64,000 bases of DNA. Source: Bacteroides ovatus (lineage in GTDB: Bacteria > Bacteroidota > Bacteroidia > Bacteroidales > Bacteroidaceae). This document shows positions 18,356-33,812 of this stretch, one piece after another. Under the pieces are notes generated by a model that was not told the origin of the DNA, ran no database searches, and saw only the letters and a program-made list of their open reading frames with translations. Position 1 is the stretch's first letter, and each line of letters begins with the position of its first letter. The position numbers and the translations under genes were made by a program. The DNA lies in assembly GCF_001314995.1 (NCBI RefSeq), contig NZ_CP012938.1, positions 1,922,001 through 1,986,000 of the forward strand. The letters are read 5' to 3'.

Positions 18356-19648
18356 TTAGGGGAAAGTAATACGAAATCGGGTCAGTCCGTCGGCATAGGT
18401 TCGCAAAGAGAATGTGCACCCATGACGCATCAGTACTTCGCGAATAAAGATGAGTCCGATTCCCTGACCGTTCGGTTTGGTAGAGAAGAAAGGACTGAAC
18501 AGTTTAGCTTCTGTTTCTTTGCTGATTCCCTGACCGTTATCTATCACTTCAACAGTGGCCGGAGCGAGGGTGCGGACTATTATTTCCCCATCGGCTTCAA
18601 TGCTTTCCGCTGCATTTTTGATGATATTTACGAGTACTTGCTCAAACAAAGCGGCATCCAGCATCACATCTTTCAGACTTTCGTCTATTTCCATGCGGAG
18701 TGTAATGCGACGGTCATTACACATTCCTTCCATAAACCGCTTGCAGGTGAAAACCAAATCATTCAGATTGACAGAAGAGAGTGTCGGTTCGGGGATTTTC
18801 ACCACATCGGCAAAACGGGTGATGAAACGACTCATCGAGAAACAACGGTCGGTACATACACGCATCACGTCGCAGATGTCTTCCATTCCTTCTTCGCTGG
18901 AAAGGGCTTGTTCTACCGTATCCAGTGTGGAAGTAATGCCGGCAGTCGTGTTGTTCACTTCGTGGGCAATCATGCGAATCACTTTCTCGTATGCTTTCTT
19001 TTCCGCTTTCATCACTTCGTCGGTGAGAGTTTCTACCAAGTAGAAAGGATGCTGAAATCCACGATCAATGAAAGAAGAATGAGTACACCGGTAGATATTC
19101 GAGTCGTTCAGACGGACGGTTACCTTCTCTCCTTTCGGGAGGTTAGCCAATTCCACCGCTAACGGAGAATCGATCTCTTTCATCTTCTTGCCTTGTACGT
19201 CTTCCAAACGAACACCCAGCATTTTCAAAGCCATCGGATTCAATTCCGAAAGGTCTTCATCAAGGGAAGTTATAATCACTCCCATCGGAGAAGCTTTAAT
19301 CAGCAAATCAAGAAAATTATTCTGTTCACGCAGGCGGAGACGTTCATTCTTGAGCTGTTCCATCATGCGGTTGAAGATATTCACCACACGATCGGCCTCA
19401 TATTGACCTATAGGGCTAAGACGGCTACTGAAATCCTGCTCACGCAACAGTTCCATACCGCTTCCGATTGTATTCAACGGCTTCACAATCTTACGATAGA
19501 AAAAGGTCAGATAAATGAGGATGAAAAGTATCAGCCCCTCCCCTATGTAGAAAAAGATTGTATTCAGTTGACTGGAAAGGAACAGCAATACACTACCTAA
19601 TGCCAGCAGCAGAAAGACTAGTATGTAAAAGAATCCTTTTATACGCAC
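18356..19648 (-). CDS. Sensor histidine kinase, partner of the NtrC-type regulator
   Basis: A 430-residue kinase. Two hydrophobic helices (about 6-26 and 32-50) are followed by a HAMP-like linker, a PAS-like domain (about 105-190, LLIKASPMGVIITSLDED), a phosphoacceptor helix with IRMIAHEVNN (His229) and an ATPase domain (VLVNIIKNAAESIEADGE, VEVIDNGQGISKETEAKLF, and NGQGIGLIFIREVLMRHG). The short loop between the helices gives little room for a periplasmic sensor, so it may sense the membrane or cytoplasm. It starts 54 bp after the response regulator gene; the two form a pair. Together with the TolC/ABC genes upstream it probably responds to an envelope stress or a toxic compound. Confidence 0.92.
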   Translation of the reverse strand: MRIKGFFYILVFLLLALGSVLLFLSSQLNTIFFYIGEGLILFILIYLTFFYRKIVKPLNTIGSGMELLREQDFSSRLSPIGQYEADRVVNIFNRMMEQLKNERLRLREQNNFLDLLIKASPMGVIITSLDEDLSELNPMALKMLGVRLEDVQGKKMKEIDSPLAVELANLPKGEKVTVRLNDSNIYRCTHSSFIDRGFQHPFYLVETLTDEVMKAEKKAYEKVIRMIAHEVNNTTAGITSTLDTVEQALSSEEGMEDICDVMRVCTDRCFSMSRFITRFADVVKIPEPTLSSVNLNDLVFTCKRFMEGMCNDRRITLRMEIDESLKDVMLDAALFEQVLVNIIKNAAESIEADGEIIVRTLAPATVEVIDNGQGISKETEAKLFSPFFSTKPNGQGIGLIFIREVLMRHGCTFSLRTYADGLTRFRITFP

Positions 19649-19702: not shown

Positions 19703-21052
19703 TCACATTGTTATATTATATTTTTCGAGACGGCGATAGAGTGCTGCACGGCTGATACCCAATGCCGTAGCTACCTGACTCAAATTTCCTTTGTAACGGT
19801 CCAACGCCTGGAGAATGGTCTGGCGTTCTATTTCATCCAAAGTCATACCAGCCAGAGCTGCGCCTTCGGTCACTCTTGCGTCATCGTGGCGAATATACTG
19901 CGCATCAAAATCGGAAGCATCAAGCAGCGGTTTACCACTTACCAGAATGGTACGTTCCACCAAGTTCTTCAATTCACGAATATTCCCCGGATAGGGCAAA
20001 CGGCTCAAGAATTGCAGGGCATCGGCAGAGAACTCCGTACGGGGCAATCCGTTGGTTACCGCCTGACGGTCGGCAAAATGACGTGCCAGCAAGGGAATAT
20101 CTTCGCGACGTTCGCGCAAGGCCGGCAGTTTCACTGTTATCAGATTGATACGATAGAAGAGGTCTTCACGAAAAGTACGTTCGCCTACCATTTTGCGCAA
20201 ATCGGCATTGGTGGCTGATACTACCCGGATATCCGTTTTTCGAGGACGGCTGTCGCCGAGCACTTCAAATGTCTGATCCTGCAATACACGCAGTAACTTC
20301 ACCTGGCACGAAAGGTCGAGATCACCTATTTCATCCAGGAAAATCGTCCCTTTGTTTGCCATTTCGAAACGTCCGATACGGTCTGCGGAAGCATCGGTAA
20401 AAGCTCCTTTCTTGTGCCCGAACATTTCACTTTCGAACAGGCTTTGAGAAATACCTCCAAGATTCACTTTCACAAAGGGGTGTTTGGCTCGCTGACTGTT
20501 GATATGAATGGCCTCGGCTATCAATTCCTTACCTGTTCCGCTTTCCCCTGTAATGAGGACAGAGGCATTGGTCTTTGCTATGCGGGCAATCGTGTTCAAC
20601 ACATCCATCAATCCCTGGCTACGTCCGATGATGTGGCTGCGGTCGAAAGAATCGCTCTGTTCCTGCGTTGGTTCCTGTGGAGTGCCCGAAAGTTGGAGTG
20701 CCGTTTCAATGCGTTGCAACAAGGCGGCATTATTCCAGGGCTTCGTTATGAAATCAAAAGCTCCCGCCTGCATTCCTTGCACGGCAAGTTGGATACTTCC
20801 CCAAGCGGTCATCAATATCACCGGTGTTTCGGGACGGAATATTTTTACTTGTTTGAGTAGGGTCAAACCCTCCTCACCCGTTGTAGAAAGAGTGAAGTTC
20901 ATATCCATCAGGATTAAATCCGGAGCTACGGAACGTACTACTTCCATAGCTTCCCGTGGACCGGGAACGGTCTGTGCTTCATATCCTGCCCGCTTCAACA
21001 TGAAGCTAAGCGAAGAACGCACTGCGCTGTCGTCATCAATTATCAGAATCAT
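19703..21052 (-). CDS. Sigma-54-dependent NtrC-family response regulator
   Basis: A 449-residue activator. The receiver domain has the acidic pocket DDD (6-8), phosphoacceptor Asp50 (LILMDMNF) and a TAWGS switch. The AAA+ domain (about 140-375) has Walker A GESGTGKE, the sigma-54 contact loop as GAFTDA (consensus GAFTGA, with D in place of G), and GTIFLDEIGDLDLSCQVKLL. The C-terminus is a Fis-type helix-turn-helix (LSQVATALGISRAALYRRLE). It is paired with the kinase 54 bp downstream. It is the natural candidate to bind the GTGTCC-N6-GGACAC dyads ahead of the TolC and adaptor genes. Its own gene is served by a canonical housekeeping promoter. Confidence 0.95.
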   Translation of the reverse strand: MILIIDDDSAVRSSLSFMLKRAGYEAQTVPGPREAMEVVRSVAPDLILMDMNFTLSTTGEEGLTLLKQVKIFRPETPVILMTAWGSIQLAVQGMQAGAFDFITKPWNNAALLQRIETALQLSGTPQEPTQEQSDSFDRSHIIGRSQGLMDVLNTIARIAKTNASVLITGESGTGKELIAEAIHINSQRAKHPFVKVNLGGISQSLFESEMFGHKKGAFTDASADRIGRFEMANKGTIFLDEIGDLDLSCQVKLLRVLQDQTFEVLGDSRPRKTDIRVVSATNADLRKMVGERTFREDLFYRINLITVKLPALRERREDIPLLARHFADRQAVTNGLPRTEFSADALQFLSRLPYPGNIRELKNLVERTILVSGKPLLDASDFDAQYIRHDDARVTEGAALAGMTLDEIERQTILQALDRYKGNLSQVATALGISRAALYRRLEKYNITM

Positions 21053-21101
21053 AGTTATATTTGAGTTTTACCCAGTCAATTAACAACTTTGTCTCACACT
21101 C

Positions 21102-21131
21102 CAAAGGTACTAATAAATAGTTTGCTACCAA
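21102..21131 (-). promoter_or_regulatory. Bacteroides-type promoter of the NtrC-type regulator gene
   Basis: On the minus strand a TACCTTTG -7 box (21102-21109) and TTG -33 box (21129-21131) are separated by 19 bp, matching the Bacteroides consensus. The start codon is at 21052, giving a leader of about 45 nt. Confidence 0.75.
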
Positions 21132-21283
21132 ATGATTGATATATAAATCACGGAATGCACGCTTCAATAATACAAGTTACGTAATAAAGCTGTTTTCTTA
21201 TTATTGTATTTAAGATTTTCCACTGCACTAAATAAAGATTTTCAGTACAGTAATTTATAATTGTTTATGCAGTCGAGTAATTA

Positions 21284-21359
21284 TCCCGTTATAACGGGAC
21301 AATAGTCACCTTATAGAGTGATAAATATCATCTTATAAGATGACTATTGTCACTTTATA
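21284..21359. repeat. Cluster of palindromes and four RTCAYYTTATA boxes upstream of the regulator gene
   Basis: The 443-bp gap between TolC and regulator genes holds a perfect 16-bp palindrome (TCCCGTTATAACGGGA, 21284-21299). It overlaps an 18-bp-arm inverted repeat at 21298-21315 and 21334-21351 (one mismatch). Within this, RTCAYYTTATA occurs at 21305-21315, 21327-21337, 21334-21344 (opposite strand) and 21349-21359. It sits about 155-255 bp upstream of the mapped-by-eye promoter of the regulator gene. It may be an operator array or part of a terminator after TolC. The rest of the gap is AT-rich with no gene I can support. Confidence 0.7.
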
Positions 21360-21495
21360 ATATGACCACCTGTCTCCGAAAGGATTAAAACTCTTAAGAT
21401 ACGAAATTAATTCGTAAAAAGCAAGAACGGAATAGAAAATAATACTATTTACAGCAAGTTCCTCCATAAGATTCAAAAGCTTTTTCCTACCCTTT

Positions 21496-22974
21496 CTATT
21501 GCCGGATAATTTCATCAAAATCAGCTTCAAGTTCGGTATTGGTACGAAAATCCCATAGCGTCAGACTGCGAATCTGATAATAGTAATACCAATAATAATA
21601 GAGTTCGGAAATATGTTTCTGTCTTGCCTCATCTTTAGAGTTCTGCGCATCATTCAGGTCTAAGGTATTAATTTTGCCTATCAGGAAAGTTTCAATACTT
21701 GTTTTATATCGTTGCTGGGCTATCGCATCGGCTTCTTTGGCTATGTCCAACTGTTGTGCCTGATTATTGAAATGCTCCACCAACAGAAAAATGTCCTGAT
21801 TGAAGTTTATCTGTTCCTGACGAATCTTTGAAAGCACTACATCCCGGTTGCTCTTGGCTACCCGGACTTTCCCACGGCGTTTTCCCCAATCGAGAATCGG
21901 AATCTTAACGCCTACCTGAACAATCTGATTGTCCTGCAAGTTCCTGTAAACGGCCGGAAAATTCCGGTTCTCACCCGTATATCCTACGCTTGCAAACAAA
22001 TCGACACTACGCAAATTTCCGCGTGCAGTAGCTACTTCATAATCGGCTTCCAACTGGCGGCGACGGATATTCTGTGCAAAAGAATTACGTTCCAATGCTT
22101 TATTTAACACCTGATTGTACTCCATCCTCGGGCCATCCACAGCTTCGGGAAGAACCGGGTTTAGTACTTCATCCTCTCCCACTCCCAAAAAAGCACGGAG
22201 CTGGAACATCTTGGCATTGAGATCACTCTCTGCTTCCGTCAATGCTGCTTTCGCATTCAAAGCGGAGAGTTTCAACTGCAAGAGTTCATTCTCGGAAATC
22301 TGCCCCATTTTGCGTTTGGCAAGGGCTACTTCATAAAGGTGGTCGGCGTTTGTCTGGTTCTGTTTCGCCGTGCCAAGATTTTCTTTTGCCAACAAAAGAT
22401 TAAAGTAATAAGTGATGGCACGCATCGTCACTTCTTCGGTAGCAGTGATAAAAGCTGCTTTCGCTTCGGCATAACGAACCGGTTCGATGCGTCTGTTCCA
22501 CTTTATATTATTGACTCCAAAGATGGGTTGTGTAAGTTGTAATGTGACAGGAACCGACATAAAATGCCGGTCTCCTCCGGCTCCCAATTGCTTGATATAG
22601 TCGAGAGAGGAAGTCAGCGAAAGTTTACCACCGGTAAGCCAGATGTTTTGATCGATAGAAAGATCACCGGTAAGCCCCAATGTGTTATTACGGACGAAAC
22701 CGTAAGAACCGTCCGAATTTTGATAGGAACTATACGATTTGTTATAATTGGGCAGGGTTCCGGTCAAGTTGACTTCCGGCAGAAGATCAGCACGAAAGGT
22801 ACGAAATTCCCAATAGGCCGTTTTCAATTCATTCAAGGCAACAGCAGCGTCAACAGATTGAATACGCGCCATAGCAATAGCTTCATTCAAGGTTATTTCC
22901 CTTTCCTTCTGTGCCGACAATGCCAACGGCAGGCAAACGGCAGCAAGAGCAAACAATATACTTTTCTTTTTCAT
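21496..22974 (-). CDS. TolC-like outer membrane efflux channel
   Basis: A 492-residue outer membrane factor. A signal peptide (FALAAVCLPLALSAQ) is followed by the two repeated OEP halves, each with long coiled-coil helices (ISENELLQLKLSALNAKAALTEAESDLNAK; VLSKIRQEQINFNQDIFLLVEHF, quoted in part), and a C-terminal DLNDAQNSKDEAR segment common in Bacteroides TolC proteins. It would form the trans-envelope duct for the ABC pump encoded at 25798-33631. It is the first gene after the extra sensor kinase and has its own candidate sigma-54 promoter, so channel and pump can be induced together although they are 10 kb apart. Confidence 0.92.
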   Translation of the reverse strand: MKKKSILFALAAVCLPLALSAQKEREITLNEAIAMARIQSVDAAVALNELKTAYWEFRTFRADLLPEVNLTGTLPNYNKSYSSYQNSDGSYGFVRNNTLGLTGDLSIDQNIWLTGGKLSLTSSLDYIKQLGAGGDRHFMSVPVTLQLTQPIFGVNNIKWNRRIEPVRYAEAKAAFITATEEVTMRAITYYFNLLLAKENLGTAKQNQTNADHLYEVALAKRKMGQISENELLQLKLSALNAKAALTEAESDLNAKMFQLRAFLGVGEDEVLNPVLPEAVDGPRMEYNQVLNKALERNSFAQNIRRRQLEADYEVATARGNLRSVDLFASVGYTGENRNFPAVYRNLQDNQIVQVGVKIPILDWGKRRGKVRVAKSNRDVVLSKIRQEQINFNQDIFLLVEHFNNQAQQLDIAKEADAIAQQRYKTSIETFLIGKINTLDLNDAQNSKDEARQKHISELYYYWYYYYQIRSLTLWDFRTNTELEADFDEIIRQ

Positions 22975-23002
22975 TATACACAGTATTTTCCACTATGAGA
23001 GA

Positions 23003-23018
23003 ATCAAACGATGTGCCA
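23003..23018 (-). promoter_or_regulatory. Candidate sigma-54 (-24/-12) promoter of the TolC gene
   Basis: On the minus strand TGGCACATCGTTTGAT fits the sigma-54 layout: the -24 TGGCAC is perfect, GG and the -12 G are 10 bp apart as required, and only the last base of TTGC differs (TTGA). It ends 29 bp before the start codon. No TAnnTTTG box is present in this gap, which supports a non-housekeeping promoter. Confidence 0.65.
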
Positions 23019-23062
23019 AAAAAGTAAAGTTTTTATTATCAACAGATTAGAAAATAAGAAAA

Positions 23063-23080
23063 GTGTCCATTTTCGGACAC
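23063..23080. promoter_or_regulatory. Regulator dyad upstream of TolC promoter
   Basis: GTGTCC-N6-GGACAC (minus strand GTGTCCGAAAATGGACAC). Fifteen of 18 bases match the dyad at 33736-33757, and both lie 44 bp upstream of a TGGCAC -24 box. It is likely an activator binding site for the NtrC-type regulator. Confidence 0.7.
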
Positions 23081-23103
23081 TATGCCCAAAAGTGAACGTT
23101 CGA

Positions 23104-25713
23104 TTATTCGCAGTAGTTAGGAAGGCGCACAGTGAAACGAGTGCCTTTACCTACTTCGGAGGTGACGGAGATGGTACCATTCAGACGTTCGATGATGGTC
23201 TGACAAATACTTAATCCCAAACCTGCTCCTTGGGTGAAATTATCGACTTTATAGAATCGTTCGAATATATGACGGATACCTTCTTCAGAAATACCGACTC
23301 CGGTATCCTCCACAAAGATGCGGGTGTAGCCGGGAACCTCATCGTCTTCATAGCCGAAAGTAATGAAACCGCTACTCGTAAATTTAGCAGCGTTATTTAT
23401 CAGATTATTCACGACTTGCTGCAAGCGTACATTATCTGTCGTGAGATATTTCTTATCACTTTCGGGCATACGCAACACCAGTTCTACTCCCGGTGGCATA
23501 TTCAAGCGTTGAGAATCATGGACGGTCTTTAATAACAGCGGCAGGTTATGCTCGGCGAACATAAATTCCATGGTTCCCGATTCGATACGTGACAAATCAA
23601 GAATATCATTAATCAAAGCCAGTAACAGGCCGCAATTTTTATTAATGGTTCCGATAAACTGGGCAATCTCTTCGCTTGTAAAACCACTCGTATCGCTTAG
23701 CAAATCGGAGAAACCTACAATCGCATTCAACGGAGTCCGAATCTCGTGACTCATGTTGGCAAGGAACGCCGATTTCAGTTTGTCAGCCTGGAGGGCTTTA
23801 TCACGAGCCTCTCTCATCTCCTGCTCGGCAGTCTTATATCGCTGGATACTCTGGCAAACACCTAATATATTGTACAATGAATCTTGTGTCAATCCCGTGA
23901 TTACGGAAGAACGATATTCCCACCATTCATACTCTCCGTTGACATTCCGCTGACGGAAATTCAGACGGGTATTAGAATCTTCTCCTGTCAATGCTCTATT
24001 AAATAACGGACTTATTTCCTTCAAATCATCAGGATGGATAGTGCGATCCATTTCATCACGGGAGATGGTAGTAACCGATTCATCGTATCCAAGACGTTTC
24101 AAGAAACCTTGCGGGAAAATGAAACAGTTGGTTTCCATATCAAACTGCCACGGATAGATGGAGCTTTCGTCTACTGCCATATCAAAGAAACGCTTCTGCA
24201 TTTCTTCATTCGAAATATTCCGTGCGGAAAGTGCCATACCGGTAATCGTATCCTTTGAACGGATCGGGACTATTTCCCCCGACACCGGGAAGTATTTATC
24301 ACTATGCACTTCTTTCATGAAAGCTCCCTGGGGTATCTTCACACTTTCTCCTTTTGAAGCTACCTGCTTCAGCATAGAATGAAGAATATCCTGACCGTTA
24401 TAATATATCTTGAAGATGCTGCCTGCCATCATTCCTTCATAAAAACGGCCCCCTGACTCATACGGCAAATGCAGCATTTGTAATAAGGAGCGGTTTGTGA
24501 AATGAATGTGCAAATCGGTATCATACGTTATCACACCATCACGGATGGAATGAAATACATTATCAAACTCATTACGCTGTTCCACAAGTTTATTCTGCAC
24601 GAGCAGACGGGTCTGTGCCTGAATCCGTCGTTTGGACTCACGCCGGTTGGCACGCATCAACCACACGATAGAAGCTATCAGCAACGCCAGGATAGACGGA
24701 TAGAGCAGTATAAAAAGGTATTTATATTTTTCCCAATACGGTTCGTTGACGATGGTTCCGCTAGAGGATACTTTATCAGGGTCAATATGAAAATAATCCA
24801 ACTGTTTATAGTCATAGATGAATCCCTGCGTGATTTCTGTCACTCCTATTTCTTGGGGAGATGTACCTTTTAAGACTAAAGCAGCCCTTTGAGCTGCCGA
24901 TAATGCTGAAGCATAACTATCGGAATCGTATGCACAGAATACGCCATTAGTTAACCCCACATTCTGACTCGAAAATACGGGAGCTTTTGAGTTTTTGCCA
25001 ACGAATGAAAGGAAAGGCGACCATTTAGGAGCAACCACCAGACGTTCGTAGCTGTTACGAGGGTAACAAATAGCAGCAATGATGTGACTCGTTGTATGAT
25101 TTTGGGTATTATAGACTTTCATTCTATAATCCGGATTGTCTTTTTGAAAGATTTTCCACTCTTCTTCAAAATCTTCAAGGCCTTTGTTACTCAAAAAGCT
25201 GTTATCTATCACACATACCACTTCTTTCCGCTGGGGAAATATCTTTTGCGCCTGACGCAATATGACATCAAAATCCGGATTGGCAGTGAACCCGCAAACA
25301 TTGGGATGAGTAGCAATCAGCTCCATATCAGGATACTTAATGCCGAAAAACACGACCGGTATCTGCAAAGGCAACGAATCTCCACAGGCAAAAAGAGTAT
25401 AGAAAGCTTCATCACTTGCTGTTATAATCAAATCGGTCTGCCTGTCACGGGCACGCTGACAAAAACGACGCATAATTACTTTCTCGGAGTTGAATGCCCA
25501 AAAATCGGCATCAAGATACTCCGTTGTTATATTCACCTTCAGGCCACTTTCTTTAAATCCTTTGACCAACCCCTGATTAAGGTCGCTATGCCAAGGAGTC
25601 TGTGAGGTGTATGACTGTATAAACAGGATATTGTATGTACGTTCCGCTGCTGCCGCCTGAATAAGAACAGCAAAAAACAGAACGATAAGCAAACAATAGT
25701 AGCGTCGATTCAT
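23104..25713 (-). CDS. Membrane sensor histidine kinase with periplasmic substrate-binding-type domain
   Basis: An 869-residue kinase; the start chosen is the ATG at 25713 because a signal peptide follows (MNRRYYCLLIVLFFAVLIQA), 22 codons inside the longest frame. The periplasmic part (about 25-310) resembles ABC-type solute-binding proteins (YNILFIQSYTSQTPWHSDL). A transmembrane helix (about 330-350), two PAS-like domains (about 375-480 and 510-630), a phosphoacceptor helix (NMSHEIRTPLNAIVGFSDLL, His656) and an ATPase domain (GAGLGLSICQTIIERLNG) follow. There is no receiver domain and no adjacent regulator of its own. It lies between the permeases and TolC and has its own promoter. It may feed the NtrC-type regulator or an unlinked one. 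Confidence 0.9.
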   Translation of the reverse strand: MNRRYYCLLIVLFFAVLIQAAAAERTYNILFIQSYTSQTPWHSDLNQGLVKGFKESGLKVNITTEYLDADFWAFNSEKVIMRRFCQRARDRQTDLIITASDEAFYTLFACGDSLPLQIPVVFFGIKYPDMELIATHPNVCGFTANPDFDVILRQAQKIFPQRKEVVCVIDNSFLSNKGLEDFEEEWKIFQKDNPDYRMKVYNTQNHTTSHIIAAICYPRNSYERLVVAPKWSPFLSFVGKNSKAPVFSSQNVGLTNGVFCAYDSDSYASALSAAQRAALVLKGTSPQEIGVTEITQGFIYDYKQLDYFHIDPDKVSSSGTIVNEPYWEKYKYLFILLYPSILALLIASIVWLMRANRRESKRRIQAQTRLLVQNKLVEQRNEFDNVFHSIRDGVITYDTDLHIHFTNRSLLQMLHLPYESGGRFYEGMMAGSIFKIYYNGQDILHSMLKQVASKGESVKIPQGAFMKEVHSDKYFPVSGEIVPIRSKDTITGMALSARNISNEEMQKRFFDMAVDESSIYPWQFDMETNCFIFPQGFLKRLGYDESVTTISRDEMDRTIHPDDLKEISPLFNRALTGEDSNTRLNFRQRNVNGEYEWWEYRSSVITGLTQDSLYNILGVCQSIQRYKTAEQEMREARDKALQADKLKSAFLANMSHEIRTPLNAIVGFSDLLSDTSGFTSEEIAQFIGTINKNCGLLLALINDILDLSRIESGTMEFMFAEHNLPLLLKTVHDSQRLNMPPGVELVLRMPESDKKYLTTDNVRLQQVVNNLINNAAKFTSSGFITFGYEDDEVPGYTRIFVEDTGVGISEEGIRHIFERFYKVDNFTQGAGLGLSICQTIIERLNGTISVTSEVGKGTRFTVRLPNYCE

Positions 25714-25750
25714 ATAATTAAAGCCTGCGGTGTTTTCAATATTATGCCGA

Positions 25751-25779
25751 CAAAGATACGTTAAATCTATTGAAAACAA
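25751..25779 (-). promoter_or_regulatory. Bacteroides-type promoter of the extra sensor kinase
   Basis: TATCTTTG (-7 box) at 25751-25758 and TTG at 25777-25779 on the minus strand, 18 bp apart. The kinase start codon at 25713 is about 38 bp downstream, which supports that start over the longer frame beginning at 25779. Confidence 0.6.
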
Positions 25780-25797
25780 ACAGATAGCCCAAGTTTT

Positions 25798-27051
25798 TTA
25801 TTCTTCGCGCAACGCCTCGGCAGGGTGTATGCGAATTACCTGACGAGCAGGAAACCAAATGCCAACGAGAATCATTAAAGACATCAGGAAATAGGTTATG
25901 ACAAATGTAATAAGAAAACGCACTACTCCCCACTCCATATACCCTTCAGTCAACTCCAGATGGCCGATATTATAACAGATGACGGCGGCAGGCAAAGCAG
26001 CCAGAGTCAATAATAGCAATCCTTCTTTATTTAAACGTTGCCAAAGCTGCATCCGGCTGGCCCCGACTGCTATACGAAGCGCAGACTCGGCACGACGGTG
26101 CTGCGTACGGAACCAGAAGGTGCCGACAATGCCCAACAGGATATTAAGCAATAAGAAGCCCATCATCCAGAAACGTACCTGTACCTGATTATAACTTCCT
26201 TGCTGGAAGTCATTCCGCAGATCTTCATAATCATGCACTTTCAGGATGAATAAGTTACCGACACTCAACTGGTTGGCGGACAATTTCATCAAATGTTCCG
26301 CAAAGTCTCTGGAAGTCCCCGGTTTCACCCGCAGACAAACTTCTACACTCGAAGGATAAAGTTCATCGTCAAGTTCGACCATTATCTTTTCAGTAAGTTC
26401 AATGGCTACATACCGGTCACTGTAGTTAGGCCAAAAGTCATTGTAACGCACTTTCTTCGAAACTCCCCCTATCTTGTACACTTTCGTAGAATCATCCACA
26501 TCGACCATTTCTTTACCCAACAGCGTACGATCGCCTTTATAATCTTTGGGCCAGAAATTTTCACCAACAACTACATTGCCATTCTTTAAAGCTTGCACCA
26601 ACGGCTGATAACCACGCCCATCAGCACTTTGATAACGGAAGACCTGAAAAAAGTCAGGGGTTACCGAACGTCGTAGCGGACTACTAACCAATGTATCGAT
26701 ACGCAACATACTACCGGAATTACTCCCGATATAGGGACGCGCATTATTGGATATTGAAACGGCCTCCACTTCCGGCAATCTCCGGAGACGATTGGTCAAC
26801 TCGATAATATCTTGTCCTAAAGATGTACTCTTTTGCTCTTTCGAAAGATAAGAATTACTCTTGTCGTTTTTCAGGCTTAGCTCCAAATAATACGTATCGG
26901 TAATATCAAATCCTACCGGTTCGTAATAAGTACGCGCTGTCACATACGTCCAGTCGACCACATACCACAGGACCACAAAAACAATTAATAGTTCTGACCA
27001 CAACCATCCGTTTGACCGGCGCTCGTTCCATATTTGTTTTAATAGTTGCAT
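25798..27051 (-). CDS. FtsX-like ABC permease, type A (second copy)
   Basis: A 417-residue MacB/FtsX-type permease: one N-terminal helix (about 19-39), a large periplasmic domain, and three C-terminal helices with the family's RTQHRRAESALRIAVGASR and FPARQVIRIHPAEALREE segments. Its N-terminus (LLKQIWNERRSNGWLW.ELL.VFVVLWY) is very close to that of the permease at 28403-29671, while the neighbours at 27081 and 29673 form a second subtype. The order B-A-B-A shows that a permease pair was duplicated. It works with the ATPase at 31701-32366. The gene ends 85 bp before the extra sensor kinase starts. Confidence 0.9.
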   Translation of the reverse strand: MQLLKQIWNERRSNGWLWSELLIVFVVLWYVVDWTYVTARTYYEPVGFDITDTYYLELSLKNDKSNSYLSKEQKSTSLGQDIIELTNRLRRLPEVEAVSISNNARPYIGSNSGSMLRIDTLVSSPLRRSVTPDFFQVFRYQSADGRGYQPLVQALKNGNVVVGENFWPKDYKGDRTLLGKEMVDVDDSTKVYKIGGVSKKVRYNDFWPNYSDRYVAIELTEKIMVELDDELYPSSVEVCLRVKPGTSRDFAEHLMKLSANQLSVGNLFILKVHDYEDLRNDFQQGSYNQVQVRFWMMGFLLLNILLGIVGTFWFRTQHRRAESALRIAVGASRMQLWQRLNKEGLLLLTLAALPAAVICYNIGHLELTEGYMEWGVVRFLITFVITYFLMSLMILVGIWFPARQVIRIHPAEALREE

Positions 27052-27080
27052 TTTCTTTAGAATTTAGATGAGTTGAAGAA

Positions 27081-28370
27081 TTATCTTTCGTTGATGGCAT
27101 CCACAATATTGGTGCGAGTTACTCTCCATGCCGGAATGGCGGCACTTAATAAATTGAGTAGGAAGCAAGCCAGAAATGCCAGCAGGAATACGGTAGGATC
27201 GAACAGTAAGTCGACACACATGGTCCGCAAATCTTCCACCCCATTGGATACAAAGTCTACGGAGAAAAGCATTCCTCCCAAAAGGAAAGCGGCGACATAA
27301 CTTAATACCAGTCCGAGAATTCCTCCGAACAGGGAATAAAGCATATTTTCGGATAGTACCTGCATCATAAGCTCCCGTCTGGGGGCACCAAAGGCTTTTC
27401 GCACTCCTATTTCGGAGATACGCTTACGCATGCGTGACAAAGTAAGTCCGGATAAGTTGACGGCAGGAACAATCAATAAGACAAGTAATGTCAGTATGTA
27501 TTGCCGTACTGCTTCTTTCACAGCAGGAGGATTGTTGGCGGAATAGCGTTGCGCGGCTACGAAATAAGTATCAGGCTGTCCGCGATAGAGTAAATCGAAA
27601 TTGGGATGCCCTGCCATAAAGATAGCCCGCAAGCGGTCTGCCTCCTGACGAATAGCCGGAAAATCGTCTCTCGATTTAGCCAGTATATAGACGGCAGTCA
27701 TACCCATGATATTGTCATCGCCCCAAGTGGCTGTGAAGGCACTTGTTGAACTCAAAGGAATCCAAACTTGCGCATAGGCGTATTTCGCCAGTTTAGAGAC
27801 CGGACGTACCACTCCGCAAACAATATAAGCCGAATGATTCAGAAGGAATGTTTTTCCAACCACTTCTGATGTTCCGAACAAACGGCGAGCCATATCTTCG
27901 GAAATCACAGCTTTTGCTGCTCCGGCATCAAAATCGGCATTATCATACGGTTTACCAGATAGAAACTCAAATTCAAATATTTTCCAGAAAGCATCGTCTG
28001 TTTGCAACACACTACAACTTTCCATCTCACCTGCCGGTTTAGCAGCCAGCATTGTTTCCTGCCAGATATTGGTTATGGAAACAACTTCGGGAATTGTCAT
28101 TGCTTTGAAACAAGCCTTTGCCGTATTGTATCCGATAGGGCCATTGCTTTGCCAATTCACGTTGGACTTACTTTGAAGTCCGGCAAACCGGAAAATAAGC
28201 ATCCGGTCACGATGGGTTTCCGGTGCAAAGGGAGCAATAGTCGCACGTAAAGTAATCACAATTACCATTATCATAGCAATAGCCAAAGCTGTACCAATAA
28301 TGGAAATAGAAGAAAGCAGTTTATTTTCTCCCAACAGATGGAATGCTTGTTTAAAATAGAGTTTTATCAT
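27081..28370 (-). CDS. FtsX-like ABC permease, type B (second copy)
   Basis: A 429-residue MacB/FtsX-type permease. One N-terminal helix (ISIIGTALAIAMIMVIVITL, about 21-40) precedes a periplasmic MacB-like domain, and the C-terminal half has three helices with the conserved LSRMRKRISEIGVRKAFGA motif at about residue 312 and IPAWRVTRTNIVDAINER at the end. It is closely similar in layout to the permease at 29673-30950 (same KQA...ENKL/RLIS start and LSRMRKR motif). It follows the type A gene upstream by 32 bp, consistent with one transcript. Confidence 0.9.
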   Translation of the reverse strand: MIKLYFKQAFHLLGENKLLSSISIIGTALAIAMIMVIVITLRATIAPFAPETHRDRMLIFRFAGLQSKSNVNWQSNGPIGYNTAKACFKAMTIPEVVSITNIWQETMLAAKPAGEMESCSVLQTDDAFWKIFEFEFLSGKPYDNADFDAGAAKAVISEDMARRLFGTSEVVGKTFLLNHSAYIVCGVVRPVSKLAKYAYAQVWIPLSSTSAFTATWGDDNIMGMTAVYILAKSRDDFPAIRQEADRLRAIFMAGHPNFDLLYRGQPDTYFVAAQRYSANNPPAVKEAVRQYILTLLVLLIVPAVNLSGLTLSRMRKRISEIGVRKAFGAPRRELMMQVLSENMLYSLFGGILGLVLSYVAAFLLGGMLFSVDFVSNGVEDLRTMCVDLLFDPTVFLLAFLACFLLNLLSAAIPAWRVTRTNIVDAINER

Positions 28371-28402
28371 GATCGTTACCAGTATAAAGTTCAGTATATT
28401 TC

Positions 28403-29671
28403 TTACTCGTCTCTTAGTGCTTCGGCCGGTTGCACTTTCATTGATTGCAGAGCCGGATACAACACGCCAAGAATAATCATTATCGCCATCAAGAGATATG
28501 TCAGTAAAATGGCTATCAGGAAACGGGGTACTGTAAATGCCATTTGTGATATATCCACTAGTTCAGTATATCCAATATTGAATGCAATCAATACGGCAGG
28601 AAGAGCCGACATGCTTAACAGTAACAAACCTTCCGTAATCAAACGATAGAATATGTTTTTCCGGTTAGCTCCCATTGCCATGCGTAAAGCAACTTCTCCC
28701 CGGCGTTGCTGGGTACGGAACCAGAAAGTGCCGATCACTCCCAGAAAGATATTCAACAACAGGAAAAAGAGAATACAGAACTGGGTACGTAATTCATTAT
28801 CATTGTCTATCTCACTGGCTGTCCGGACTTTGCTTAATGGAGTGACATCAAGTATATAAATATTCCCTACCTGATAGATACGGTCGGCATCATTCATAAG
28901 ACGTTCCACAAAGCCATCGTCTACACCTTCGCGGACACGCAGACTTAATTCGAGATAGGCTACGTTTTCGACTGTTTCCATTTGTTCGTCAGAAAGGTAA
29001 GTGCCGATATAGGTTCCGGTAAAAGGTTTTCCGGCAATGTTATAACGATCGTAGCGAACGGGCTCTGTTAAAGCTGCAATACGAAAGTTGGTATCACTCA
29101 TGCGAACTTCTTTACCCAAAAGGTCTTTTCCGTGGAAAGTAGCATCCGGATAATAGTCTGCAACATCGACAGGAACGATTATTGTATTTTTCTCCAAAGC
29201 TTTCACCAGACTTTCATGACCGGAACCATCGATATTCCGGAAACGAAACACCTTATAATATTCAGGAGTCGTCCAACGATCCATCGTACTTATCCAAACC
29301 GTGTCGTTATCCGGAAAACGGAAACTCGCTCCACTGCACCCTTCATTGTATGGAATACTGTTTTGAGAGATACAGACAGATTCAACTTCCGGATGACGGG
29401 ACAAACGTCCGGCTATTTCCCTTAAAGCAGTCATATCATCTTTAACAGTCAGCTCCGGATTGAAATCGGTAGATTTATCGGTAAGACGGTTCATACGTAA
29501 TACATACGTATTTTCTATATTAAAGCCCATTGGCTGATAATAGATATGCAAAGTGACATAAACCAAATCAATGATATACCACAATACGACAAACACCAAC
29601 AATAGCTCAATCCATAGAAAAGCATTGCTCCGGCGCTCATTATATATTTGTTTCAATAACTGTTTCATCAT
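28403..29671 (-). CDS. FtsX-like ABC permease, type A (first copy)
   Basis: A 422-residue permease with the same layout as the one at 25798-27051: N-terminal KQLLKQIYNERRSNAFLW, one helix, a periplasmic domain, then RTQQRRGEVALRMAMGANR and a C-terminal YPALQSMKVQPAEALRDE. Only one base separates its start from the stop of the upstream type B gene, so the pair is tightly coupled. It is likely one half of a heteromeric permease with the type B protein. Confidence 0.9.
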   Translation of the reverse strand: MMKQLLKQIYNERRSNAFLWIELLLVFVVLWYIIDLVYVTLHIYYQPMGFNIENTYVLRMNRLTDKSTDFNPELTVKDDMTALREIAGRLSRHPEVESVCISQNSIPYNEGCSGASFRFPDNDTVWISTMDRWTTPEYYKVFRFRNIDGSGHESLVKALEKNTIIVPVDVADYYPDATFHGKDLLGKEVRMSDTNFRIAALTEPVRYDRYNIAGKPFTGTYIGTYLSDEQMETVENVAYLELSLRVREGVDDGFVERLMNDADRIYQVGNIYILDVTPLSKVRTASEIDNDNELRTQFCILFFLLLNIFLGVIGTFWFRTQQRRGEVALRMAMGANRKNIFYRLITEGLLLLSMSALPAVLIAFNIGYTELVDISQMAFTVPRFLIAILLTYLLMAIMIILGVLYPALQSMKVQPAEALRDE

Positions 29672-29672
29672 T

Positions 29673-30950
29673 TCATCTTTGGTTTATTGCATCTACAATG
29701 TTCATTCTCGACACTCTCCAAGCCGGAATTCCGGCACTCAATAGATTTAATAACAGGCAGAAACAGAATGCAACGAGAAACGTCAACGGACTGAACAGCA
29801 TATCAGTGGAAAGAGAAGTTTCCCCGGCAAGACCTGCATTCTCACTGTTATCAAAAAGGAATGAGTTTAACAGGAAAGTAGCTGAATAGCTCAATATCAG
29901 TCCCAGTATTCCCGCAAGCAGTGTCAATATCAGATTCTCCCAGAATACCTGTCGCAACAATTCGTTGGCAGTAGCACCGAATGCTTTCCGGACACCGATT
30001 TCCGTCATACGCTTCCGCATGCGGGATAAAGTCATACTACTTAGGTTGATAGCTGGAACCAAGAGGAGAATCACAATGATAAGAATGAATCGCCTGACAA
30101 TGTGTTTCATATCCAAGTCTGTCCCCCAATGGCGGTAAAGGTAGGCAAATTGAGTATCCGGCTGACCACGATAAATCAATTCCATATCCTTCAGCTTACT
30201 ATTGTAGACCTGACGATATTTTTCGACTTCAGCACGAATAGCCGGAAAATCGTCGGACGAACGTGCAAGGATGACCGCCCGCATAGGTCCCATCAGATTT
30301 TCTCTCCACGAGAAAGAAGCCAAATCAGTTGATGTATAGGGAATCCAGACCTGTGCATAAGAAGCTGTCGCCAACTTTGATACGTCTTTCACTACTCCTG
30401 TAATGGTATAATCCGCTTTATTTAATTGGATGGTACGCCCTACCACGTCAGTTGTACCGAACAGGTGGCGTGCCACACTGGCAGAAACCACTGCCTTGGA
30501 CAGCCCACTCTCAAAATCGGCTTTCGTATATGGTTTGCCACACAAGAATTCAAAGCAAAAGACTTGCCAGAACGCTTCATCCGTTTCCATTTCATCTACA
30601 CTCATCCTGCCTCCTCCGGGAAGAGAAGCACGCATCTTATTATTAACGGAAGTAATGGTAACCGCTTCAGGTATTGTCAACGTCTTAAAGCATTCACGGG
30701 CAGTCGTGACGGACATCTGGCTGCTGGCAGCATTATTGTGTTGCTCTTTATGCCGGGACGTCATTGCCTTGACATACAATGATCGTGAACGGTTAACTTC
30801 CGGCACGCAGTCTTTTATCCGTATCTGCAATGTCAGCACGATCACCATTATCATGCAAATAGCCAAAGCTGTACCTACCATACAGACAATACTAATAAGC
30901 CGGTTCTCTTTCAACTGGTAAAGAGCTTGCTTTATGTATTGCTTCCACAT
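29673..30950 (-). CDS. FtsX-like ABC permease, type B (first copy)
   Basis: A 425-residue MacB/FtsX-type permease: N-terminal helix at about 20-42 (GTALAICMIMVIVLTL), periplasmic domain, and three C-terminal helices with LSRMRKRMTEIGVRKAFGA and IPAWRVSRMNIVDAINQR. It is the first of the four permeases transcribed, 56 bp after the GIN-domain gene. The ATPase in the same run is the only nucleotide-binding subunit, so all four permeases would have to share it or act as two alternative pumps. Confidence 0.9.
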   Translation of the reverse strand: MWKQYIKQALYQLKENRLISIVCMVGTALAICMIMVIVLTLQIRIKDCVPEVNRSRSLYVKAMTSRHKEQHNNAASSQMSVTTARECFKTLTIPEAVTITSVNNKMRASLPGGGRMSVDEMETDEAFWQVFCFEFLCGKPYTKADFESGLSKAVVSASVARHLFGTTDVVGRTIQLNKADYTITGVVKDVSKLATASYAQVWIPYTSTDLASFSWRENLMGPMRAVILARSSDDFPAIRAEVEKYRQVYNSKLKDMELIYRGQPDTQFAYLYRHWGTDLDMKHIVRRFILIIVILLLVPAINLSSMTLSRMRKRMTEIGVRKAFGATANELLRQVFWENLILTLLAGILGLILSYSATFLLNSFLFDNSENAGLAGETSLSTDMLFSPLTFLVAFCFCLLLNLLSAGIPAWRVSRMNIVDAINQR

Positions 30951-31006
30951 CTTCTTATTCTTTTTTTGATTTGATTCTACAGGAGTTCACAGAAGAATGT
31001 TCTACA

Positions 31007-31633
31007 TTAGATATTCCAACCTTTCTTTGTTACGTCTTTACACTTCAGGTTTTTGGAGTTGATTTTACCAACGCCATCCCGCTTAAAGAAAGCTGCATCC
31101 GCTTTACCGGATACAGTGATATTTCCTACTCCATCCACTTTAGCTTTGATAGTGCTGCAATCAACATTCAACTTCATATTGCCTACTCCGTCAACATCTA
31201 GTTTCAACTCATCGCAATATAGACTTTTCACGTTACAGTTGCCTACTCCATCAAGTTCGAAAGCTATATTTTTAAGTTTTAGTTCTTCTTTTGCATCGAA
31301 GTTCCCTACTCCATCAATTTTCACTTTACTCAAATCGGGAGCAGTAATATAGCAAATAAGGTTCTTGATATTCCTCGCATTCCTATCTTTATACGAGATA
31401 ACCAAAGTTCCGTTTTTCACTGTCACCCTTGTTTTTTCTACAAATTCAGAAGGACCTTCCAAACGGCAGGAGCATCCTGCCGATTGAGTAAAAATAATAT
31501 TCCCGACAGATTGCAGGTTTATGGCAGAAAACTCGTCTACATTATAATCTTTACTCACATTTTGTGCCGATAGCGAACAGAAAGCAACACTTAACAGGAC
31601 AGCTATCGCAACGATGAAAATATTCTTTGTCAT
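31007..31633 (-). CDS. Secreted GIN-domain (DUF2807) protein
   Basis: A 208-residue exported protein with a signal peptide (IFIVAIAVLLSVAFCSLSAQ). The body is a right-handed beta-helix type repeat: the motif DGVGN/K occurs five times, about every 20-25 residues (KIDGVGNFDAK, ELDGVGNCNVK, DVDGVGNMKLN, KVDGVGNITVS, KRDGVGKINSK). This is the putative auto-transporter adhesin head (GIN) domain. In Bacteroidetes such proteins are often encoded beside ABC permeases and envelope stress genes; function is not settled. It lies inside the efflux operon between ATPase and permeases, which suggests a periplasmic or surface accessory role. Confidence 0.85.
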   Translation of the reverse strand: MTKNIFIVAIAVLLSVAFCSLSAQNVSKDYNVDEFSAINLQSVGNIIFTQSAGCSCRLEGPSEFVEKTRVTVKNGTLVISYKDRNARNIKNLICYITAPDLSKVKIDGVGNFDAKEELKLKNIAFELDGVGNCNVKSLYCDELKLDVDGVGNMKLNVDCSTIKAKVDGVGNITVSGKADAAFFKRDGVGKINSKNLKCKDVTKKGWNI

Positions 31634-31700
31634 GATGATTTTTAATTTAGAGATACATTAATCAATTTTTCCATTTAGTTCTAATCGTAAGAGGCCGTTT

Positions 31701-32366
31701 CTATTGTACCTGGCGTCCATCGAAGAAACGAATAGTGCGCGAAGTCTGCTTCGCCTGTTCTTCATTATGGGTAACCATCACGATAGTACGTCCGTCTTCC
31801 TTATTCAACCGATGAAGCAGTTCCATTACTTCAGCTCCCATCTTTGAATCCAAGTTACCTGTCGGCTCATCGGCAAGGATTATTTCGGGATTACCAATAA
31901 TCGCACGGGCAATAGCTACACGTTGGCACTGCCCACCGGAAAGTTGTGTAGGAAAATGTCTCATACGATGGCTTAATCCTACTTTTTCCAATACCTCTTG
32001 TGCCAACCGTTTTCGTTCACTACCAGCCATACGTCGATAAAGCAAGGGGAGTTCTACATTATCCATCACATTCAACGAATTAATCAAATGAAAAGACTGA
32101 AATACAAAACCGAGCGTTTTATTACGAAAAACCGCCAGTTCCTTGTCTTTCATTCCTTCGGTACGTATTCCGTTGATTTCCACCATTCCCATTGTAGGTG
32201 CATCAAGCAATCCCATTATGTTCAGCAGGGTGGATTTTCCGCATCCGGAAGGTCCCATTATACTTAGAAATTCTCCACGTTCTACCGTCAGATTTACATT
32301 CTCCAATGCTACCGTCTCAATCTCGTCCGTACGATAAATCTTAGAAAGAGAGTTCAATGTTATCAT
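31701..32366 (-). CDS. ABC transporter ATPase (MacB/LolD type)
   Basis: A 221-residue nucleotide-binding subunit with Walker [10 protein letters not shown] (about 38-46), Q-loop region [14 protein letters not shown], signature [15 protein letters not shown] (about 142), Walker [13 protein letters not shown] and the switch histidine VTHNEEQA. This matches the LolD/MacB/FtsE subgroup that works with FtsX-type permeases. It starts 17 bp after the adaptor gene and precedes the GIN-domain protein and four permeases. It would power export of a compound from the periplasm or inner membrane through TolC. Confidence 0.95.
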
Positions 32367-32383
32367 AACTTCTAGTATTTAGT

Positions 32384-33631
32384 TTATTTAATTTTCAACT
32401 TATTCTTGTTCTTATAAGCACTCATATCGCTTACTACTACTTTATCACCCGGTTGCAATCCGCTCAACACTTCTACATATTCAAAATTAGAATCTCCTAA
32501 CTGTATTTTACGTTTTACCAGTTCATTATCCGAATTGCAGACAAAAAGTTCATATTCACCGCGTCCCACATAGAAAGAGCCATTGGCTATGCGCATTACA
32601 TCTTCCTTCACAGCATTCATCACATAAACATCTGTCTTTAGTCCGGAACGTAAGCGGCGGTGATTATCTTCTTTCAACTGAACGGTAAATGATATCACAC
32701 CATTCTTGGATAGTGGTGTAACACTGCTAACTGTCCCTTCCAGTTTGTCGCTCCCTATCTTAACAATTGCTTTTCCTCCGGCTGCTACACGATCACCGTA
32801 CGTATCCGCAATCTCGCCTTCCACTTTAAAATGGCTCAAATCAGAAATGATAGCTACCTGTCCGCCTTCGGAAATCTGTGCACCAATTTGGTTATTAATA
32901 TAGGTAAGAATAGCTTTACGCGGGGAACGGATTTGTGCATCATCCAACGTACGTTTCTTTTCGGAAAGGCTCTTGCGAAAGATATTAAAATCAAGCTCCT
33001 GAACTTTCAATTCGGCAGCAGCTACTTCCTTCTCATTTTTATATTGTTGCTGAAGTTGTTCGTACTCTAATTGAGCCACATTATAGCTCAATTCGGCCTG
33101 GCGTACTTTATCTGTTGTTCCTGCACCGAGGCTGTCCAGATAGTGTTCATTTCTCAACTCCACTTTCATCCGACTCAATTTCATTGCCGACACTTTAATC
33201 TGCATTGCCATATCGGAAAGTTTCGTCTGATTATTGACGCGAAGCTGATCAAGCTTATACTGGCGCATTTGTTCCTCGTCCAGCAACTTCTTATATTCAA
33301 TTTCCGTACTCTGAAGGTCCAGTTTCAGAATCGGAGTACCTACGTCTACGCTATCTCCCCCTTTTTTATAGACTTCAATAATACGACTGTTGATCGGAGA
33401 ATTGATAATTTCTTCAAAAGCAGGGACAACCTTACCGGAAGCACTGACACTTACCTCAATCACCCCTTTATCGACTGTGGAAAAGACAAGATCCTTTGCC
33501 TCCACTCCTGCCCTTAATACAGATATAAGTACACCGATGGCAATAATACTTGCCACTCCAATGGATGAATAACGAATTATCTTCTTATTACGTTCTTTTT
33601 GACGTACCTCTTTAGGAATTTCTCTGTCCAT
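32384..33631 (-). CDS. Efflux periplasmic adaptor subunit (HlyD/MacA family)
   Basis: A 415-residue membrane-fusion protein: short cytoplasmic N-terminus rich in charged residues, a helix (about 23-41, YSSIGVASIIAIGVLISVL), a lipoyl-type domain (VPAFEEIINSPINSRIIEVY... and QIGAQISEGGQVAIISDLS), a long alpha-helical hairpin (about 110-230) and a beta-barrel plus membrane-proximal domain ending LQPGDKVVVSDMSAYKN. It bridges the ABC permease to TolC. It is the first gene of the efflux operon and carries a candidate sigma-54 promoter with an upstream dyad. Confidence 0.93.
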   Translation of the reverse strand: MDREIPKEVRQKERNKKIIRYSSIGVASIIAIGVLISVLRAGVEAKDLVFSTVDKGVIEVSVSASGKVVPAFEEIINSPINSRIIEVYKKGGDSVDVGTPILKLDLQSTEIEYKKLLDEEQMRQYKLDQLRVNNQTKLSDMAMQIKVSAMKLSRMKVELRNEHYLDSLGAGTTDKVRQAELSYNVAQLEYEQLQQQYKNEKEVAAAELKVQELDFNIFRKSLSEKKRTLDDAQIRSPRKAILTYINNQIGAQISEGGQVAIISDLSHFKVEGEIADTYGDRVAAGGKAIVKIGSDKLEGTVSSVTPLSKNGVISFTVQLKEDNHRRLRSGLKTDVYVMNAVKEDVMRIANGSFYVGRGEYELFVCNSDNELVKRKIQLGDSNFEYVEVLSGLQPGDKVVVSDMSAYKNKNKLKIK

Positions 33632-33677
33632 ATCCGATCATTTACTATTTTATGATGTATCAATTCGGTACTTTATA

Positions 33678-33693
33678 TACCAAATCTGTGCCA
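33678..33693 (-). promoter_or_regulatory. Candidate sigma-54 (-24/-12) promoter of the efflux operon
   Basis: On the minus strand TGGCACAGATTTGGTA: the -24 TGGCAC is perfect and shares the flanking TTGGCACA with the TolC promoter. The -12 box (TGGT) is weaker but keeps the G at the right spacing. It ends 46 bp before the start codon at 33631. No TAnnTTTG box is found in this gap. Confidence 0.6.
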
Positions 33694-33735
33694 AAATCGT
33701 AAATGGTTGATAAATAGAAGATAACAAAAAACAAA

Positions 33736-33757
33736 GGGTGTCCGATATCGGACACCC
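33736..33757. promoter_or_regulatory. Perfect 22-bp palindrome, regulator dyad of the efflux operon
   Basis: The core is GTGTCCGATATCGGACAC with GGG/CCC outside it, a perfect palindrome with no loop. Its 18-bp core ends 44 bp upstream of the TGGCAC box, the same distance as for the related dyad at 23063-23080. Confidence 0.75.
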
Positions 33758-33812
33758 TGTACGAATTTACCGTTCAGAATAGCATCTATCATCCTGTCGA
33801 CAGGAAGCCTGT

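Follow-up and report, generated by a model that had tools for sequence, protein, structure and literature searches.

The succession of activator site, IHF site and sigma-54 promoter is already known from the orp promoters of Desulfovibrio vulgaris. In that orp1/orp2 system (DVU2106, IHF, sigma-54), the IHF site lies between the palindrome and the -24/-12 sequence, and the parts of the two papers compared place the orp2 elements at -88 (palindromic activator site), -43 (IHF site) and -11 (promoter) (PMC3897727, PMC4641369). From the same parts of these papers, one activator serves two operons with cell-division genes as targets, the activator site of orp1 lies at -131, and deletion of one ihf-alpha gene left orp expression unchanged (PMC3897727, PMC4641369). 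A second related system is QseF/GlrR at glmY, for which the portion of the source compared describes a TGTC...GACA palindrome (consensus TGTCN10GACA), predicted IHF and sigma-54 sites, and a response-regulator activator (PMC8745638). Little on sigma-54 control in Bacteroidota was found in the literature searched. Such control of COG0577 (FtsX-type ABC) permeases in Bacteroidia was predicted earlier, in a study whose main text contains neither the word IHF nor the word TolC; a palindrome, a cognate activator and a spacing rule are absent from the text of it that was compared (PMC12316311). On the export side, MacAB-TolC and DarBCD each combine an adaptor, an ABC ATPase, an FtsX/MacB-type permease and a TolC-type channel.

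We analyzed a window of 64,000 nt from Bacteroides ovatus (GCF_001314995.1, NZ_CP012938.1, 1,922,001-1,986,000); all coordinates are positions in this window, and all features described lie on its minus strand unless stated otherwise. The pump operon opens with an HlyD-type periplasmic adaptor gene (32384..33631, Pfam PF13437), followed by genes for an ABC ATPase (31701..32366, Pfam PF00005), a DUF2807 protein (31007..31633, Pfam PF10988), and four FtsX-type permeases spanning 25798..30950 (29673-30950, 28403-29671, 27081-28370, and 25798-27051), three of which also match the MacB periplasmic domain. HK1 (23104..25779), a histidine kinase whose N-terminal part resembles substrate-binding proteins, comes next, and then the TolC-family outer-membrane channel (21496..22974, Pfam PF02321), which starts ~10 kb from the start of the pump operon. 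As the earlier note had described, an NtrC-type gene (19703..21052) comes after tolC; the two genes share a strand and are 443 bp apart. HK2 (18356..19648), the predicted cognate kinase, has profile matches to HAMP and HATPase and no HisKA match at 1e-3. By Pfam matches, the MacAB-TolC-like set of adaptor, ABC ATPase, MacB/FtsX permease, and TolC is encoded together, as in the two known exporters, yet unlike them this locus lines up four permease genes together with a DUF2807 gene. The equivalog models place it in neither family: the MacA score was 33 of 342 bits, the ATPase reached 214 of 966 bits against the MacB model, and its best NCBIfam match, DarD, stayed under the curated cut-off (250 of 375 bits). 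HK1 is probably a neighbour and not a core part of the system, because it is kept in two species in which the pump, tolC, the activator, and HK2 are absent from the stretch examined. The scan with HK1 gave 10 loci, two of which (L073 and L074) were kinase matches only and were excluded afterwards.

Upstream of both tolC and the pump operon lies the same module. The dyads GTGTCCGAAAATGGACAC (site A, 23063..23080, the predicted activator site of tolC) and GTGTCCGATATCGGACAC (site B, 33738..33755, that of the pump operon) share 15 of 18 bases, as had been claimed. They are followed by the -24/-12 sequences TGGCACATCGTTTGA (23004..23018) and TGGCACAGATTTGGT (33679..33693), respectively. The earlier note was right that the spacing is equal at both sites, while its figure of 44 bp was not: the gap to TTGGCACA (TTGGCAC) is 43 bp, and its proposed search pattern, N44-TGGCAC, is correct since 44 bp separate each dyad from TGGCACA. 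At -12, site A reads TTGA and site B reads TGGT, and both keep the G in the GG-N10-G register. With this element and one rpoN gene in the genome (PF04552), both sites classify as predicted sigma-54 promoters. The suggestion that the activator site lies nearer the promoter than usual was only partly right, as its predicted centre of about -79 compares with -88 in D. vulgaris orp2 and with a usual separation of 100-140 bp, in the parts of the sources compared (PMC3897727, PMC7962754).

The genome scan that had been named beforehand as a check found the exact dyad at 2 places in 6.47 Mb, both of them here, with 0 places for the reversed control pattern and 0 occurrences in 40 order-3 Markov windows. 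Once up to 3 mismatches are allowed, the dyad by itself loses its specificity, with 183 places in the genome vs 150 for the control. A relaxed composite with a spacing of 43-45 bp matched sites A and B and one third site, while its control gave 0. A chance origin of the paired modules was rejected on these genome scans and on the fixed spacing in relatives described below, in agreement with the earlier view that identical spacing would seldom arise by chance.

Comparison with relatives, also proposed beforehand, covered 84 pump regions (83 from relatives plus the window) and identified 88 modules in 69 of them. In all 88, the dyad core lies 43-45 bp from TGGCA and the module points toward the pump. 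When TGGCA was sought 0-149 bp behind each dyad, 88 matches fell at 43-45 bp on the pump strand, and the other strand and the reversed word both gave 0. There were 115 such dyads in 1.41 Mb, comprising 88 in modules, 18 second dyads, and 9 that were neither. The first ORF downstream, tallied for 85 of the 88 modules, was an adaptor in 54, a permease in 11, TolC in 9, ABC in 9, and unassigned in 2. Column, IHF, and second-dyad counts were made on 64 nonredundant modules. Two columns that the search did not constrain, T+11 and the -12 G (G+13), were present in 64/64, while the C following the -12 G was found in only 27/64 and is missing from both window sites. The -12 boxes that had been called imperfect are thus the usual form in the family. 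Against the model, seven loci were followed up at TolC, and in six of them the DNA examined contained the activator but no module.

Between the activator site and the promoter sits a stretch resembling the IHF consensus, for which we used WATCARNNNNTTR with nine specified positions. Site B matches at 9/9 (TATCAACCATTTA, 33700..33712) and site A at 8/9 (AATAAAAACTTTA, 23025..23037), with a 9/9 match on the opposite strand of site A at 23037-23049, read by eye. At one fixed offset, 53/64 modules match at 8/9 or better; the maximum in 500 shuffles was 2. A second dyad 19 bp upstream occurs in 25/64 modules vs 0.04 expected. Site A has a degenerate copy (8/10, 23083..23098), and site B has none. 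This absence, and the match of only 8/9 on the coding strand at site A, count against the module model. Genuine IHF subunits are described for Desulfovibrio in the parts of the sources compared, whereas no protein of this genome reached the IHF cut-off (PMC3897727, PMC4641369). Its six full-length HU/IHF-type proteins all fall under both the HU and IHF cut-offs, and a pair encoded side by side, at genome positions 917469-918035, has IHF alpha as its best-scoring model. If the arrangement functions as predicted, it would suggest an IHF-like role in sigma-54 control for the phylum, from HU/IHF proteins that stay below that cut-off. The earlier note had overlooked the IHF-like stretch, the second dyad seen at many sites, and the terminator look of both dyads.

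The candidate activator matches PF00072 (receiver), PF00158 (AAA+), and PF02954 (Fis-type HTH), with the motifs GESGTGKE and GAFTDA. Its AAA+ domain with Walker A, GAFTGA-like loop, and Fis-type HTH mark it as a predicted NtrC-type activator. The loop reads GAFTDA, not GAFTGA, as it does in DVU2106 (PMC3897727, PMC4641369), and GAFTDA is counted among the variants keeping activity, in the part of the source compared (PMC4641369). The rpoN gene was found in 290/301 family genomes, and its presence is therefore non-discriminating; one module-bearing adaptor genome, G594, which is 72% complete, gave no rpoN match. We consider it very probable that both modules are sigma-54 promoters and that the activator encoded behind tolC co-induces the channel and the ABC pump operon, a prediction built on elements, conservation, spacing, and co-occurrence with the activator gene that were all observed directly. 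The genome scan and the relatives support the link of TolC and pump through one activator and two modules that had been put forward. HK2 would phosphorylate the activator, whose dimers would bind the dyad centred at about -79 and, at many sites, also the second dyad, which lies upstream by about two helical turns. Judging from the consensus, an IHF/HU-type protein may bend the DNA at about -40, and the AAA+ ring would then contact RpoN polymerase at -24/-12, a contact that is established for this activator family. The nearly constant spacing of 43-45 bp suggests a loop of fixed geometry.

As in Desulfovibrio, one activator is proposed for two operons, but the spacing differs between orp1 (-131) and orp2 (-88) and is nearly fixed here, and the target is a pump instead of cell-division genes (PMC3897727, PMC4641369, parts compared). 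Within the literature covered by the search, the rigid spacing, the targets, and the phylum appear to be new. Membership in the QseF/GlrR regulon was rejected, since the palindrome here is TGTC-N8-GACA and the activator scored 329 bits against a GlrR cut-off of 763.

Both dyads also resemble intrinsic terminators on the minus strand, with 8 and 10 pairs and T-rich sequence after them, and they lie 24 bp behind the stop codon of HK1 and 57 bp behind that of an NDH2-like gene. They could on this account be only terminators of these upstream genes and bind no activator. T-richness after the dyad was higher where the upstream gene is co-directional (mean 7.7 vs 4.8 of 14; 62 vs 13 modules; one-sided p=0.0003), a post hoc value obtained after five loci of one genus, close relatives, were reassigned by homology; before reassignment, the same test gave p=0.12 (67 vs 8 modules, 13 unclassified left out). 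A terminator alone, however, needs no second dyad at 19 bp, and it leaves the half-site letters conserved beyond pairing and the fixed distance to the sigma-54 sequence to be accounted for. Modules also occur with a divergent upstream gene, for example at five loci where that neighbour is the activator gene, and terminator-like sites are not enriched in the region overall (12 vs 9.5 in shuffles). We therefore regard a terminator-only role as very improbable. The dyads may nevertheless terminate the upstream gene as well as bind the activator. It is a tentative and rather doubtful idea that the palindrome has a dual use: in the DNA it would serve as enhancer of the pump genes, kept at one helical distance from the sigma-54 promoter by an IHF-like bender of Bacteroidota, and in the RNA as intrinsic terminator of the upstream gene, so that one inverted repeat would both insulate and activate the exporter.

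Another sigma factor or another activator could also be considered. The TTGGCA could be a -33-like box of ordinary sigma-ABfr promoters, whose boxes include TTTG in the part of the source compared (PMC7366714), and TTTG does stand at the -12 position in many modules. The GG-N10-G element is invariant, however, and TAnnTTTG is absent from the dyad-to-start-codon stretch of both window sites (0/2), as had been noted; it occurs anywhere near the module in 7/64 and in the TTTG register in 0/64. This reading was rejected on register, and its chance of being correct is slight in the extreme. Sigma-54 promoters driven by a different activator of the genome are improbable, too. The genome has eight strong activator matches, and six loci with an orthologue had no module detected. 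Yet the best paralogues are ~38-44% identical (six of the eight compared, own copy included), an orthologue at least 54% identical is found in 63/84 pump regions, and where genomes with modules lack a local activator, an orthologue was present elsewhere in 13/13, vs 0/10 controls. Co-induction by the activator behind tolC remains our preferred reading.

Every component, from activator and kinase through the palindrome, predicted bending site and promoter to the targets, is available at this locus for testing, and the set is conserved across a large part of the family. If the prediction is true, it would provide a way to learn the inducer of a conserved gut-bacterial pump, and a rule for finding further members, with a DUF3836 gene as first candidate. 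In an order-wide search, the loose composite matched in 40/393 genomes with scattered gaps. Nine loci from other genomes with a gap of 44-45 were examined; six precede an adaptor or ATPase gene (ORFs were listed for three, the others read by eye), and three have no obvious adaptor/ATPase gene downstream. A search for plasmid relatives of site A gave no match. The strict phylum pattern, searched without the dyad, matches neither site A nor site B of the window, which counts against the model. It gave 10 matches in 9/395 genomes, with 0 for the reversed control, and 5 of the 10 lie, together with a dyad, before pump or DUF3836-like genes.

As sequence architecture, the loci make a strong case for a sigma-54 regulon in which a nearly invariant activator/IHF-like/promoter geometry links a TolC gene with its pump operon; its function is predicted. 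The pump genes, encoding an HlyD-type adaptor, an ABC ATPase, a DUF2807 protein, and four FtsX-type permeases, run from 33631 to 25798 on the minus strand. They are followed 3', on the same strand, by genes for a histidine kinase (HK1), TolC, an NtrC-type activator, a second histidine kinase (HK2), and a DUF5686 protein, in that order, so the earlier note's placement of an NtrC-type activator next after TolC was borne out. Site A, before tolC (dyad at 23063–23080), and site B, before the pump operon (33738–33755), both carry the dyad as that note described it on the minus strand, with a gap to TTGGCAC of 43 bp rather than 44. With the 16-bp dyad core and TGGCA taken as end points, the convention for module gaps below, the gap is 45 bp at each site.

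Within the genome, a single contig of 6.47 Mb, sites A and B stand out from chance matches. The exact dyad occurs at two places genome-wide, both in the window (reversed pattern, 0), and a scan with a relaxed form of the composite suggested in the earlier note returned sites A and B plus one third place, with none in the control. With three mismatches, the dyad alone was unspecific across the genome (183 places vs 150 for the control). Searching for the IHF stretch and sigma-54 sequence without the dyad, at up to two mismatches, gave 14 places vs 2 in the control; the four best were site B with no mismatch and site A, the third site, and a place lacking GG with one each. The third module (G000:C1:3262628-3262693; L166, L226) lies 150 bp before a DUF3836 gene and combines the dyad TGTTC-N6-GTACA, an IHF-like stretch meeting 8/9 positions, and a full TGGCACG-N4-TTGCAT sequence. 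A different Bacteroides genome (L203, L227) likewise carries a module, its gap being 42 bp, at the gene for a similar DUF3836-like protein.

To follow the module across the family, we searched 301 genomes with the adaptor, obtaining 84 matches at 1e-40 with the window's genome counted. The resulting 84 regions, several of them short, comprise the window and 83 loci from other genomes. With the dyad relaxed to TGTYC-N6-GRACA and gaps of 43–45 bp, 88 modules were found in 69 of the 84 regions. The first ORF downstream of 85 first-pass modules encoded the adaptor in 54 cases, a permease in 11, TolC in 9, an ABC protein in 9, and was unassigned in 2. Of the 60 regions without TolC immediately before the adaptor, 59 have a strict module there, and the sole miss (L110) has a dyad with one mismatch. 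In the 22 regions with TolC directly upstream, no module stands before the adaptor itself; nine have a module elsewhere in the region and 13 have none. Seven of these 13 contain the activator, and further upstream DNA revealed a perfect module at TolC in one of the seven and none in the other six. Two regions are truncated on the upstream side of the adaptor, one of them with a module elsewhere.

Comparison with close relatives, also proposed earlier, supported the pairing: five with the whole locus (L065, L067–L070) carry both modules at gaps of 44 or 45 bp, and a sixth locus (L072) has the TolC module, its adaptor start lying beyond the stretch compared. The nearest named locus, from Bacteroides xylanisolvens XB1A (L065), has TolC and activator proteins 99.6% identical to the window's. 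It has two permease genes, equivalents of the window's third and fourth, vs four in the window (25798–30950), so permease number differs between near relatives. The 22.6-kb stretch covered in B. finegoldii (L066) and B. bouchesdurhonensis (L071) contains no pump, TolC, activator, HK2, or module, and HK1 adjoins DUF5686 there.

Module anatomy was evaluated in 64 modules, 24 of the 88 being left out as at least 75% identical; the dyad and TGGCA were fixed by the search and all other columns were free. Counting from TGGCA, the free columns T+11 and G+13 were present in 64/64 modules (TGGCAYRNNNNTTGH); only 27/64 have the C that completes a classical -12 GC. The -12 boxes that the earlier note called imperfect do lack this C, yet are usual for the module set. 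The IHF consensus WATCARXXXXTTR (partial texts of PMC7962754 and PMC3897727) falls at -19 to -7, with 9/9 positions met in 29 modules, 8 in 24, 7 in 9, and 6 in 2. At least eight positions were thus met in 53/64 modules; 500 shuffles averaged 0.12 such modules and never gave more than 2. Common descent alone would be a poor explanation of this conservation, because several columns between the elements hold only 0.1–0.3 bit. A second dyad (at least 8/10) lies 19 bp upstream in 25/64 modules (expected 0.04), with three and five cases at 21 and 22 bp; site A has one at 8/10 and site B has none. Overall, 115 dyads were counted in the 84 regions: 88 within modules, 18 second dyads, and 9 neither.

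The activator was found to accompany the module. An orthologue at least 54% identical to the window's is encoded in 63/84 regions, and all 13 module genomes without one in the region encode it elsewhere (68–87% identity). Ten control genomes were compared, five matching the adaptor but with a module-less region and five lacking any adaptor match; two of the ten had only a 41–44% paralogue and eight no match at 1e-100. The window's activator has the AAA+ loop GAFTDA, as does DVU2106; region activator ORFs have GAFTDA (46), GSFTDA (10), GAFTGA (5), or GSFTGA (1). GAFTDA is counted among variants that would retain activity in the portion of PMC4641369 available.

Across 395 genomes of the phylum, a strict IHF stretch plus sigma-54 sequence, with no dyad required, gave 10 matches in 9 genomes (reversed control, 0); sites A and B themselves fall outside this strict pattern. 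Judging gene kinds by eye, five matches (L203, L204, L205, L208, L211) lie before adaptor, ATPase, or DUF3836-like genes, with a dyad further upstream. The remaining five stand before different ORFs, lack such a dyad, and may be targets of other activators, or chance. In the sole genome from another order (L208, L211), both pump-module dyads are separated from TGGCA by 65 bp, some two helical turns more than elsewhere, a distance known from these two sites in one genome.

BHFa is an IHF-like Bacteroides host factor, and the word did not appear in the results of a literature search on it. Of 26 PF00216 matches in the genome, six are full-length, and none of these six reached an HU or IHF cut-off. 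An adjacent HU/IHF-type pair (G000:C1:917469-918035; L186, L187) scored best as IHF alpha, at 57 and 56 of 111 bits, below the cut-off, and these are candidate bending proteins. IHF is mainly confined to Proteobacteria, yet present in some other clades, according to the available part of PMC7962754.

We compared these results with partial texts of PMC12316311, PMC3162934, PMC7962754, PMC4641369, PMC3897727, PMC12596196, PMC7366714, PMC8745638, and PMC5985334. In PMC12316311, COG0577 permeases of Bacteroidia are predicted to be under sigma-54 control, and this is termed first evidence, so on the portion available this link was already known as a prediction. PMC7366714 does not use the word RpoN, and PMC12596196 mentions neither sigma-54 nor TolC; among the papers listed by the literature searches, none was described there as treating, for Bacteroidota, this activator, its palindrome, an IHF site, or co-regulation of TolC. 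The kind of system is already known; the rigid spacing, phylum, and targets look new in the literature covered.

Both dyads also resemble intrinsic terminators on the minus strand (23062–23081; 33735–33758), 24 bp past the HK1 stop at site A and 57 bp past that of an NDH2-like gene at site B. T-richness after the dyad was higher with a codirectional upstream gene (one-sided p=0.0003, 13 modules excluded, five reassigned loci all from one genus); a cruder first version of this orientation test gave no significance. This hints at a dual use of the dyads that would include termination. The tolC–activator gap (21053–21495) has a TAnnTTTG box at about 21109–21102, so the activator gene may have its own predicted sigma-ABfr promoter. 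Imperfect inverted repeats, judged by eye, were also observed in this gap.
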